From positions 1 to 64,000 of the forward strand of contig JACQCZ010000005.1 in NCBI GenBank assembly GCA_016201405.1: a DNA stretch of 64,000 bases. The letters run 5' to 3'. Below the pieces are notes generated by a model. That model was not told the DNA's origin. It saw nothing but the letters and a program-made list of their open reading frames with translations, and searched no databases. Of this stretch, positions 2,057 through 6,709 are shown piece by piece. The translations under genes and the position numbers were made by a program. How positions within the stretch are numbered: position 1 is the stretch's first letter; each line of letters opens with the position of its first letter. Origin of the DNA: Candidatus Acetothermia bacterium. Lineage in GTDB: Bacteria > Bipolaricaulota > Bipolaricaulia > RBG-16-55-9.

Positions 2057-2513
2057 ACGCACAAGCGTTCGATCGATTAGTACTACTTGGCTGAACGTAT
2101 TACTACGCTTACACCTGTAGCCTATCAACCTGCTTGTCTCGCAGGAATCTTATTTCAGGTATTCCGAAGAATACCTGACACGGAGACCTATTCTTGAGGT
2201 GGGCTTCGCGCTTAGATGCCTTCAGCGCTTATCCCGTCCAGACGGTAGCTACCCAGCGATGGCCTTGGCAGGCCAACTGGTACACCAGAGGTCCAGCCTT
2301 CTTGGTCCTCTCGTACTAAAGAAAGTGCCTCTCAAGTCTCCTACGCCCACAGCGGATATGGACCGACCTGTCTTGCGACGGTCTAAACCCAGCTCGCGTA
2401 CCTCTTTAACCGGCGAACAGACGGACCCTTGGGACCTGCTTCAGCCCCAGGATGAGATGGGCCGACATCGAGGTGCCGAACACTCTCGTCGATGTGGACT
2501 CTCGGAGAGTACT

Positions 2514-2544
<31 letters not shown>

Positions 2545-3258
2545 ATGATCGATGGCCCTTCCACGCGGGACCACCGGGTCACTAGGACCTGCTTTCGCAT
2601 CTGATTGGCATGTCTGCCTCTCAGTTAAGCTGGCTTGTGCCCTTGCACTCGACAGTGGATCGCCAACCCACTTGAGCCAACCTTTGTGCGCCTCCGTTAC
2701 TCTTTGGGAGGCGACCGCCCCAGTCAAACTGTCCGCTTAGCACGGTTCCTCCGCCGCTTGTCACGGCGGTCGGTTAGAGTTCTAAGACTCAAAGGGTGGT
2801 ATTTCAACGTTGCCTCCACCGAGGCTAGCGCCCCAGTTTCATAGGCTCCCACCTATCCTACACAGTGACTATCAAAACCCAATGCCAAACTCCAGTAAAG
2901 CTCCACGGGGTCTTTCCGTCCTGCTGCGGGTTGCCGGCATTTTCACCGGCACTTCAAATTCGCCGAGGTCCTCGTTAAGACAGTGCTCAAGTCGTTGTGC
3001 CATTCATGCGCGTCGGAACTTACCCGACAAGGAACTTCGCTCAGTTCTGTTACTTTCAGGCGTTGCCGCCTTACGAACCTGCAATGTCGCAGGCGGATGA
3101 AGATTTCGCTTCACCTCCTCCGGTCTCCCGGAGGCTCGGACTATATCTTCGCGTTATTTAGCGTCTGGCGTGTAGTCTCTGAGGATCCCTCAAATAGATC
3201 TTTGAGGTTTCCTGCGGATTACCCAATCTTCACCATTGTTACGGGCTGAGGACCAGGG

Positions 3259-3351
3259 AAAAAAGGGTACTCTACCAATTGAGTTACACCCCCAATATTC
3301 GACTAAATACTGGTGGAGGTGACGGGACTCGAACCCGCAACTCCCCTTTTT
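3259..3351 (-). tRNA. Circularly permuted tRNA (tRNA-like domain) at the tip of intron P5
   Basis: In transcript order the 3' half (3351-3311) comes first and ends in encoded CCA. A 17-nt linker (3310-3294) follows, then the 5' half (3293-3259). Acceptor stem: 3293-3287 with 3321-3315, 7 bp including one G-U. D stem: 3284-3281/3272-3269, with an 8-nt loop carrying G18 G19. T stem: 3338-3334/3326-3322, with loop TTCGAGT. Anticodon stem: CCCTT 3267-3263 with AAGGG 3348-3344. U8, A14, A15-U48, A21, U33, G53, U54, U55, C56, A58 and C61 are all present, and the variable loop is 5 nt. The anticodon loop is open and continues as an A/U helix into P5, so the anticodon is not fixed. UUA, UUC or UGA are possible depending on the join. 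Whether a free tRNA is made is unknown. Confidence 0.85.
3294..3310 (-). other. Linker between the permuted tRNA halves
   Basis: Seventeen bases join the encoded CCA to the first base of the 5' half. GTATT and AATAT-type arms in it pair to form a small hairpin that could stack on the acceptor stem. This pairing can extend into the CC of CCA and the first GG, so it competes with the acceptor stem. In a maturing permuted tRNA this segment would be removed by RNase P and a 3' nuclease. Confidence 0.7.
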
Positions 3352-3463
3352 CTCTGATCCCCAACTTCGTAGATGAAGCTCTAAGGACTTTCCCGCATAT
3401 AGCCAGATTTTACTAAGGCTCGCTAAAACCTTAGGACCGTTATAGTTACGGCCGGCCTTCACT

Positions 3464-3497
<34 letters not shown>

Positions 3498-5172
3498 GAC
3501 CTTCCAGCAGTGGCCAGGTTTCACTCTCTATACATCCTCTTTCGAGTTAGCAGAGAGCTGTGTTTTTACTAAACAGTCGCCTGAGCCTGGTCTCTGCGAC
3601 CCTCCTTGCGGAGGGCGCCCCTTTTCCCGAAGTTACGGGGCCAATTTGCCGAGTTCCTTAACGAGGCTTCACTCGCCCACCTGAGGCTTCTCGCCTCGCC
3701 TACCTGTGTTAGTTTGCGGTACGGTTTCTACCATGCTCCTTAGAGGTTTTTCTTGACCGCTGATCAGACTTTCTTCGGGCCCGTAGGCCCTCCGCATCAC
3801 ACCTTGACTTAGCCAGGTCCCGGATTTGCCTGAAACCTGATGTCTTGGTGCTTGCACGGGGATGTCCGTCACCCCGCTCGTCCCGACCTGCGGCGTCTCC
3901 CCATAGTCAACGCATGGCAGAAGGGCCGGAATATTAACCGGCTGTCCATCGGATACCCCTCTCGGGTTTTCCTTAGGATCGCCTAACCCTGGGAGGATAA
4001 GCCTTCCCCAGGAACCCTTAGGCATTCGGTGGCCGAGATTCTCACTCAGCTCGCGCTACTCATTCCGGCATTCTCACTTCTCCGCGGTCCACCTCGTCTT
4101 ACGAGTCGGCTTCTCTCCGCGGAGAACGCTCCCCTACCACTTGGAAAGCCCGTGAGCCTTCCAAATCCGTAGCTTCGGCGCTGGACTTAATCCCCGTTAC
4201 ATCTTCGGCGCTTCTTCACTCGAACGGTGAGCTATTACGCACTCTTTAAAGGATGGCTGCTTCTGAGCCAACCTCCCGGCTGTCTTAGCGAAAAAACATC
4301 CTTTCCAACTTAGTCCAGTCTTTGGGGCCTTAGCTGTCGGTGTGGGCCGTTTCCCTTTTGACCGTGAACGTTATCCCCCACGGTCTGACTCCCATCGATC
4401 CACCAATGGTATTCGGAGTTTGGTTGGGTTTGGCTTGCGCCGCACCCATCCAGTGCTCTACCCCCATTGATTTCTAAGATGAGGCTAGCCCTAAAGCTAT
4501 TTCGGGGAGAACCAGCTATTACCAGGGCCCGTCCGGCTTTTCACCGCTACCCACAGCTCATCCCAAGAGTTTTCCTCCTCCAAGGGTTCGGTCCTTCCTT
4601 TGATTTTACTCAAAGTTCAACCTGGCCATGGGTAGATCGCCTGGCTTCGGGTCCGTTCCCAGTGACTATCGCCCTATTAAGACTCGCTTTCGCTACGGCT
4701 CCATCCCACAAACGGGACTTAACCTTGCCACGGAGAACGACTCGCCGGATCATACTGCAAAAGGCATGTGGTCAGGCCCGCGTCCATCCGCGTCCCTCCG
4801 CCTTGCGGCATCGGGCCGTAATTGGGGTCGCAGGTCCCCTCCCACTGTCTGTAGGCAAATGGTTTCAGACTCTATTTCACTCCCCGTCAGGGGTTCTTTT
4901 CACCTTTCCCTCGCGGTACTATATCCACTATCGGTTAGCTGGGAGTCTTTAGCCTTAGAGGGTGGTCCCCCTAGATTCACGCCAGATTTCTCGGGTCCGA
5001 CGTTACTCAGGTACAGCTCGGGAGAAGAAAGCCTTTCGCCTACGGGACTATCACCGTCTCTGGTCGCCCTTTCCAGTGGCTTTGCAGGCTGTTCGGCTAG
5101 ACCTTCTTTTTGTAACTCCGCAATGAGCTGCCCTACAACCCCACAAAAGCAAGCAATTGTGGTTTAGGCTGA

Positions 5173-5203
<31 letters not shown>

Positions 5204-5444
5204 TCTTATAGATTTCTCTTCCTCTGGGTACTGAGATGCTTCACTTCCCCAGGTTCGCTTTGCAGACCTACTCAGTTCGGTCTGCAATACCGCACCTTCC
5301 GTGCGGTGGGTTGCCCCATTCGGAAATCCCCGGATCGATGCCCACTCGGCGGCTCCCCGAGGCTTATCGCAGCCTATCACGTCCTTCATCGCCTCCAGCT
5401 ACCAAGGCATCCACCATTTGCCCTTACTGAGCTTGCGCGATTAC

Positions 5445-6092: not shown

Positions 6093-6488
6093 ATGAAATT
6101 GAATCCCGATCCCGACGATATTGAAGCGACATTGATTAAGATACAAGAGCAATCCTCCCAGGGAAATTTTCGCATCACGCAACATGCTCATCAAGAAATG
6201 GTTGAAGAAAATATCAGTTTGAATGACGTATTGGAAGCGATTCAAAGTGGAAGAATTTTAGAGAACTATCCGGAACATAGAAGAGGACCCTGTTGTTTGC
6301 TTTACGGAGAGACTGGATCTGAAAGTTCGTCTTCGGGGGCTGCAGTGCTTTTGACGCAGGGAGGTCTTCCAATCAGGCGACATCTGCATATTGTATGTAC
6401 AACAACTCGTGAAATGCTTATAATCATTACGGTGTATGAAGCAAAGAGTCCCAAATGGAAGACTCCGACGCAAAGGAACGGATCATGA
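6093..6488 (+). CDS. DUF4258 domain protein, putative toxin-like partner
   Basis: A 131-residue protein with the DUF4258 pattern: an N-terminal helix ending RITQHAHQEMVEENIS, then DVLEAIQSG and ILENYPEHRRGPCCLLYG, and later HIVCTTTREMLIIITVYE. DUF4258 proteins are RelE/MqsR-like small folds and are commonly encoded just before a YgiT-type zinc-finger protein, as here. The pair is usually interpreted as toxin-antitoxin-like. Toxicity is inferred from family and context only. The internal stretch around ESSSSGAAVLL is a low-complexity insertion relative to what I expect of the family. Confidence 0.75.
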   Translation: MKLNPDPDDIEATLIKIQEQSSQGNFRITQHAHQEMVEENISLNDVLEAIQSGRILENYPEHRRGPCCLLYGETGSESSSSGAAVLLTQGGLPIRRHLHIVCTTTREMLIIITVYEAKSPKWKTPTQRNGS

Positions 6489-6709
6489 GATGCACTATTG
6501 AAGGATGCCCAGGCGAGTACGAAGAAAAATTGATCGTCCACACAGTGAGATCCCACGGCAAGGTTGTGGTGATCGATCATGTTCCTGCAGAAGTCTGTGC
6601 CATTTGCGGCGATGTGCTTCTTCGCCCAGATACGATCAGAAAATTAGAAGCGATTCTGAAATCATCCAAAGAGCCGAGTGATCAGGTTCCACTTTACGAA
6701 TTCGCGTAG
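6485..6709 (+). CDS. YgiT-type zinc finger protein (MqsA N-domain-like), putative antitoxin
   Basis: A 74-residue protein with paired knuckles CTIEGC and CAICG separated by about 30 residues. This is the YgiT/MqsA N-terminal zinc-finger arrangement that binds the partner toxin. The ATG at 6485 is preferred over an earlier in-frame ATG (6455) for two reasons: it overlaps the previous stop as ATGA, and it has AAAGGA about 8 nt upstream. This implies translational coupling to the DUF4258 gene. The HTH DNA-binding half of full MqsA is absent, so autoregulation would need another factor. Confidence 0.8.
   Translation: MRCTIEGCPGEYEEKLIVHTVRSHGKVVVIDHVPAEVCAICGDVLLRPDTIRKLEAILKSSKEPSDQVPLYEFA

Follow-up and report, generated by a model that had tools for sequence, protein, structure and literature searches.

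A predicted permuted tRNA(Ala)-like body at the tip of the P5 arm of a group I intron in a bacterial 23S rRNA gene

The 23S rRNA gene in the window (the whole stretch of 64,000 nucleotides that was analyzed) is interrupted by a 386-nt group I intron, and the tip of the intron's P5 arm carries a permuted tRNA sequence that is predicted to fold as a tRNA body with its anticodon stem merged with P5. The acceptor stem of this body has the G3·U70 pair that marks tRNA(Ala). We tentatively propose that the P5 tip is a built-in dock for alanyl-tRNA synthetase (AlaRS) or another tRNA-binding host protein, which would aid folding and splicing of the intron, a reading that we hold to be quite possible, if short of probable.

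The tRNA-Asn, 5S rRNA and 23S rRNA genes lie on the minus strand of the window. The 23S rRNA gene was located at 2057-5438(-) (Rfam LSU_rRNA_bacteria, RF02541; 2571.6 bits) and the intron at 3042-3427(-), its edges being set from the sequence. The Rfam model Intron_gpI (RF00028) matched 3117-3458(-) over its entire length (1-253) with 73.1 bits, bearing out the group I intron that a sequence-only reading of this DNA had placed in the 23S rRNA gene. The intron has helices P3, P4, P6 and P7, a P1 with the splice-site U·G and a terminal G. P1 (3413-3434(-)) pairs the 5' exon sequence CUAAGGU (3434-3428) with the guide GCCUUAG (3419-3413) at a probability of 0.95-0.96 and has U3428·G3419 as its splice-site pair, while G3042 is the final base of the intron and 3041 the first of the 3' exon, AGCGAAG. 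According to the Rfam alignment, the 5' strand of P4, UGCGGG, lies at 3392-3397(-) with its partner at 3218-3213, J5/4 and the 3' strand of P4 (AAUCCGCAG) at 3212-3220(-), and the catalytic core at 3139-3180(-). P7 was assigned by eye to 3177-3173/3143-3139, and the 3' strand of P3 (3169-3165) pairs with 3406-3402 at a probability of 0.94-0.95. The ORF list held no ORF of at least 120 amino acids inside the intron.

We take the insertion site to be L1931 (E. coli numbering). Bacterial group I introns at L1931 of 23S rRNA are known, for example, from Simkania and Thermotoga; they share both the site and the intron class with the host intron, and we know of no tRNA body in them. In the host genome, a pattern search with the L1931 5' exon gave one match, the interrupted 23S rRNA gene; the assembly comprises 19 contigs, is 90.8% complete, and a 23S copy with a variant exon would escape the pattern. 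Since the only 23S copy detected is interrupted, we infer that the intron must be spliced in the host cell. Uninterrupted L1931 sites were found in 23 of 99 other genomes, including two from the host's family (G001 and G003), and the remaining 76 gave no match. There was no Rfam match to 16S rRNA in the window, and the 23S-5S genes appear to be unlinked from 16S.

The 5' side of the P5 arm (3354-3378(-)) consists of 3378-3372, 3371-3368 and 3362-3354, which pair with 3234-3228, 3243-3240 and 3256-3248, respectively, on the 3' side (3228-3256(-)) at probabilities of 0.97-1.0. After one mismatch the arm continues into a 10-bp tip helix, the 5' strand of which (GAAAAAGGGG, 3343-3352(-)) stands at the place of the 3' strand of an anticodon stem, and the 3' strand of which (CCCUUUUUUC, 3258-3267(-)) stands at the place of the 5' strand. 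This helix, 3352-3343/3267-3258, is the favored register (0.93-0.99). It is followed by a variable loop of 4 nt, AGUU (3339-3342(-); U48 is 3339, the register being taken from the pairing probabilities), by the T arm GCGGG UUCGAGU CCCGU (3322-3338(-)) with U54, U55, C56 and A58, by the 3' strand of the acceptor stem, CACCUCC (positions 66-72; 3315-3321(-), with U70 at 3317), and by the discriminator A73 with an encoded CCA (3311-3314(-)). The acceptor end is closed by a 17-nt linker (3294-3310(-)), for which an A/U-rich hairpin is predicted, and next comes the 5' strand of the acceptor stem, GGGGGUG (positions 1-7; 3287-3293(-)), in which G3 is 3291 and faces U70. U8, A9, the D arm ACUC AAUUGGUA GAGU (with A14, A15, G18, G19 and A21) and A26 complete the body (3268-3286(-)). 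Pairing is possible at seven positions of the acceptor stem, five of the T stem and four of the D stem, and the bases of the tertiary contacts are kept, namely, U8, A14, A15-U48, G18, G19, A21, U54, U55, C56 and A58.

The sequence-only reading had described a complete tRNA with four paired stems capping P5. Its coordinates for the swapped halves, the encoded CCA and the 17-nt linker were correct, and the capping of P5 by continuous pairing held as a near-continuous arm (0.93-1.0) with the one mismatch before the tip helix. The acceptor, D and T stems also stood, but the 5-bp anticodon stem AAGGG/CCCUU had a pairing probability of only 0.02-0.03. Likewise, the T and D contact bases were among the invariant bases of tRNA as claimed, but the supposed U33 belongs to a run of U:A pairs within the helix. 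The body is therefore not a complete tRNA: the 10-bp tip helix runs on into P5, so that the anticodon arm is fused with P5 and there is no 7-nt anticodon loop with which to decode. The minimum-free-energy structure of the P5 arm was a cloverleaf on a long stem (z of -5.6; 0/200 shuffles as low). In the ensemble of the whole intron, the T stem, the D stem and the two outer acceptor pairs formed with probabilities of 0.45-0.56 and the remaining acceptor pairs with 0.79-0.85, so by energy alone the model contains a competing fold, tRNA tertiary contacts being left out of nearest-neighbor energies.

The same fold bears on whether this is a permuted tRNA gene whose halves are excised and joined at the anticodon to give a decoding tRNA, as happens in red algae and certain archaea. 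The order of the halves and the encoded CCA fit the scheme described for such genes, in which the 3' half comes first and an intervening segment adjoins the acceptor end (PMC3978253), and the host has the ligase RtcB. However, permuted tRNAs of algae and archaea are joined for decoding, whereas the body in the host intron has no anticodon loop, its would-be loop lying within the helix that enters P5, and the host already has tRNA-Ala genes with UGC, CGC and GGC anticodons. We regard this explanation as scarcely credible.

Likeness to tRNA beyond chance was indicated by ARAGORN, which called the rejoined halves a tRNA with each of five invented anticodon loops and none of 300 shuffled versions (one loop, CCA kept). 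The sequence-only reading had named a random-like score of the joined halves as telling against a tRNA, and this was not what was observed. ARAGORN called no tRNA on the intron locus as it stands (L014). The Y RNA model YrlA (RF02553) matched the permuted body over the whole model with 50.7 bits (E value of 1.3e-10), below the Rfam cut-off of 69. In YrlA RNAs, a long terminal stem is described as bearing arms that resemble the D, T and acceptor arms of tRNA (PMC8394870), and the P5 arm resembles these RNAs in its tRNA-like arms, in their permuted order (as in the Rfam alignment) and in the long terminal stem. It differs in lying within a group I intron and in that the short loop of the YrlA model gives way to the CCA and 17-nt linker. 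YrlA matches were found in 69 of 100 genomes of the class, none at the cut-off. Besides that of the intron, the loci inspected were 29, more than 100 weaker matches lying beyond them; all 29 were tandem tRNA genes, with scores of at most 44.5 bits (Lys-Lys). The match in the intron had the top score, 6 bits over the best tandem-tRNA match. Because tandem tRNA genes match too, the YrlA match alone is weak evidence of identity. Plasmid and phage BLAST matches across the permuted part were also considered as further cases, and those inspected (L141 and L142) proved to be tandem tRNA genes.

Among the 100 nearest genomes, 13 including the host had a group I match, 10 of them over the Rfam cut-off. 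The sequence-only reading had proposed related introns as a test of the insert, and the 12 others (9 over the cut-off) had neither a YrlA match at the intron nor a match to the pattern running from T arm through D arm to the 3' strand of P4; a looser form of this pattern found the host only (1/100 relatives). A strict pattern of T arm, D arm and J5/4-P4' gave 33 stretches in 84,980 species genomes and 8 in viral contigs; it demands set bases and would miss variants, and host or near-host records possibly lay outside those scans. Many of the 41 stretches were at tandem tRNA genes, and in a scripted check of the 600 bases downstream, none of them (0/41) had a narrowly defined group I core motif. 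Five of the 41 were permuted modules (L080, L088, L099, L101 and L102; acceptor complementarity 6 or 7 of 7, tRNA spacing 17 nt), and for the four of these scanned with Rfam at gathering level (L080, L088, L099 and L101) there was no intron match. L080, L099 and L101 are other permuted tRNA-like modules in records of Cohnella, Rubripirellula and Actinomadura. L088 (6313-6426(-)) is a Y RNA-like element in a Planctomycetota MAG, at 67.5 bits against the cut-off of 69, and lies directly upstream of rtcB (Pfam E value of 1.3e-127); its matched stretch is identical to that of L102, which comes from a Gemmatimonadaceae MAG. L088 can be read as a GGGGGCG/CGCCUCC acceptor with G3·U70 and without CCA, and alone it folds preferentially in another register.

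These elements raise the alternative that a YrlA-type RNA was captured by the intron, its stem becoming P5 and its tRNA-like body handling PNPase or tRNA-modifying enzymes. The full-length YrlA match exceeds that of the best tandem tRNA, the L088 element beside rtcB scores close to the cut-off and has a comparable acceptor reading, and RtcB is encoded on the same host contig, 87 kb away. On the other hand, the score of the intron is below the cut-off, the CCA and linker replace the short loop of the model, no YrlA match lies near the host rtcB, and a Ro60/TROVE protein was matched in none of 21 genomes (the host, at 90.8% completeness and with a missing contig possible, and 20 relatives). We consider capture of a Y RNA distinctly unlikely. 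Since L088 is also readable with G3·U70, this pair may belong to permuted mimics rather than reflect use by AlaRS.

The main rival to a dock is a tolerated relic, which we judge to be somewhat unlikely: a piece spanning two identical tRNA genes in tandem (3' half, spacer, 5' half) would have come to lie in the P5 loop, with the outer ends of its anticodon stems extending P5, and would do nothing beyond capping the arm. Any tandem tRNA pair yields a 3' half, a short spacer and a 5' half, and it was such pairs that accounted for every other YrlA match retrieved in the class. The peripheral loops of group I introns accommodate inserts. The CCA may simply be inherited, as most of the recovered host tRNA genes encode it, and conservation of the insert was not found among the 100 relatives. 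Against a relic, no recent source was apparent. A recent copy of a host tRNA-Ala was rejected, as the three genes were identical to the body at 42, 47 and 50 of 69 positions, and there was no close match among the other recovered host tRNAs (34 recovered, of 46 over the cut-off). Decay, moreover, should break pairs, yet no pair is broken in the acceptor, D and T stems, and the T/D contact bases are intact.

The way in which the body differs from the host tRNA-Ala genes bears on selection. Compared with tRNA-Ala(UGC), 50/69 positions are identical and 19/69 differ, and 7 of the 21 pairs are changed, all 7 on both sides and all still paired (5-68, 6-67, 10-25, 51-63 and three in the anticodon stem). 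The corresponding counts were 8 changed pairs, 7 on both sides, for tRNA-Ala(CGC) and 10 changed pairs, 9 on both sides, for tRNA-Ala(GGC); all of these counts presuppose descent from a similar tRNA-Ala. The anticodon-stem pairs were counted in the disfavored register, and P5 alone would suffice to preserve them, so that the four acceptor, D and T pairs carry the weight. On these comparisons, the base-pair-preserving divergence from host tRNA-Ala would be a sign of selection. The case for function is limited by there being a single example.

With regard to isotype, the acceptor GGGGGUG/CACCUCC-A-CCA provides G1-C72, G2-C71, G3·U70 and A73, the combination expected of a tRNA(Ala) mimic, a feature that the sequence-only reading had overlooked. 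Among 343 distinct tRNAs from the retrieved loci, 177 were usable once we had set aside those lacking a CCA end, those of doubtful isotype and those with under 6 acceptor pairs out of 7; G3·U70 was present in 11/11 tRNA-Ala and in 1/166 others, the exception being an odd tRNA-Gly call (locus L017). For the host, 46 tRNAs were over the cut-off, the loci of 30 were retrieved, 34 distinct tRNAs were recovered and 25 were usable, and the three with G3·U70 were the three tRNA-Ala. When 193 tRNAs were compared with the body, Ala was best in both mean similarity and single match, with a phage tRNA-Asp second, and a tRNA-Ala(UGC) on a Variovorax plasmid (L141) had the same acceptor stem. Matches of the T arm/acceptor part to phage comprised 13 rows, 6 annotated as tRNA-Ala and none annotated as another tRNA; the three matching phage rows for the D-arm side were tRNA-Phe. 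By another scoring of both halves, however, host tRNA-His reached 40 against 38 each for Ala and Gly, and for the 5' half alone the best host fits were His and Lys. At the level of sequence, the alanine identity pair is thus clear and the isotype by overall similarity is not clear; because overall similarity sometimes favors His, Gly or Lys, the isotype call rests mainly on G3·U70.

AlaRS recognizes its tRNAs through the acceptor stem, not the anticodon, so that the lack of an anticodon loop need not prevent the tRNA body from being an AlaRS ligand. Transplantation of G3-U70 into other tRNAs is described as conferring alanylation (PMC7373986). In the proposed docking mechanism, AlaRS or, less specifically, a tRNA-binding protein would bind the tRNA body of the P5 arm, and the bound protein would steady the neighboring P4-P6 side of the ribozyme. 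Less certainly, RNase P and a 3'-end nuclease might remove the 17-nt linker to give a two-piece intron with a free CCA, which, by analogy with two-piece tmRNA, could then be alanylated. Pairing of the leader with RCCA is described as inhibiting RNase P (PMC9433436), and cleavage may be hindered here because U-1 can pair with A73 (probability of 0.44).

The linker occupies the same position as the processed piece of the two-piece tmRNA precursor. Two-piece tmRNA genes are permuted, their precursor is probably processed by RNase P and tRNase Z, and the RNA has a G-U third pair for AlaRS (PMC3985003), a pair also present in the insert. The insert resembles two-piece tmRNA (RF04321) in the succession of T arm, acceptor strand with CCA, short intervening piece and acceptor 5' strand, and matched positions 36-96 of the 213 of this model with 34.5 bits (cut-off of 47), but it has a canonical tRNA D arm and no tag-coding part. 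Identity as tmRNA was rejected, since the host has an ordinary tmRNA elsewhere (173.8 bits), and the insert reached only 16.9 bits in the same search.

The help that fungal synthetases give to group I introns was once ascribed to tRNA mimicry, and a surface other than the tRNA site was found later to be responsible. To our knowledge, the introns aided by CYT-18 or LeuRS have no true tRNA body. CYT-18/TyrRS and LeuRS are described as splicing factors of fungal group I introns (PMC4275181, PMC7373986); because CYT-18 does not use its tRNA site but a different surface to bind introns (PMC7373986), this precedent is not one of true tRNA mimicry. In those systems a synthetase aids a group I intron, whereas in the host intron the link to AlaRS is inferred. 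No report of AlaRS acting with a group I intron was found among the papers listed from the open-licence literature, at the level of titles and the opening parts of abstracts. A literal tRNA body with a synthetase identity pair inside an intron would open the mimicry route to protein-assisted splicing to direct test, and would tie the maturation of rRNA to the tRNA machinery. A bolder version, which we think improbable, is that the host's tRNA enzymes treat the intron as a tRNA-Ala, so that the linker is cut, a two-piece ribozyme with an alanine-charged CCA in P5 results, and splicing of the 23S rRNA depends on AlaRS and senses the condition of the tRNA apparatus.

Likewise, among the papers listed from the open-licence literature, none was found to describe a group I intron of rRNA with a tRNA body, at the level of titles and the opening parts of abstracts. 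The sequence-only reading had known of no established case in a bacterial rRNA intron; this holds for the union with an rRNA intron in the literature searched, but permuted tRNA mimics have bacterial precedents in YrlA and two-piece tmRNA. What is new is the joining of a permuted tRNA body to a group I intron, together with the CCA and the linker.

Several other observations were made in passing. In the relative G008, a 23S group I intron without a tRNA (L010) lies a few bases upstream of the L1931 site, at L1917 by eye; it has a large insert on its P6 side, and G008 also has an uninterrupted L1931 site on another contig. Six further group I introns of relatives (L003-L005 and L007-L009) apparently lie within tRNA genes, judging from their flanks by eye. 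In the window itself, a DUF4258 protein is encoded at 6093-6488(+) (E value of 7.7e-18) and is followed by a small Cys-rich ORF at 6485-6709(+), which by eye resembles a YgiT/MqsA-type zinc finger and gave no Pfam match. From their sequences, these two neighboring ORFs near the rRNA genes are a possible toxin-antitoxin-like pair.
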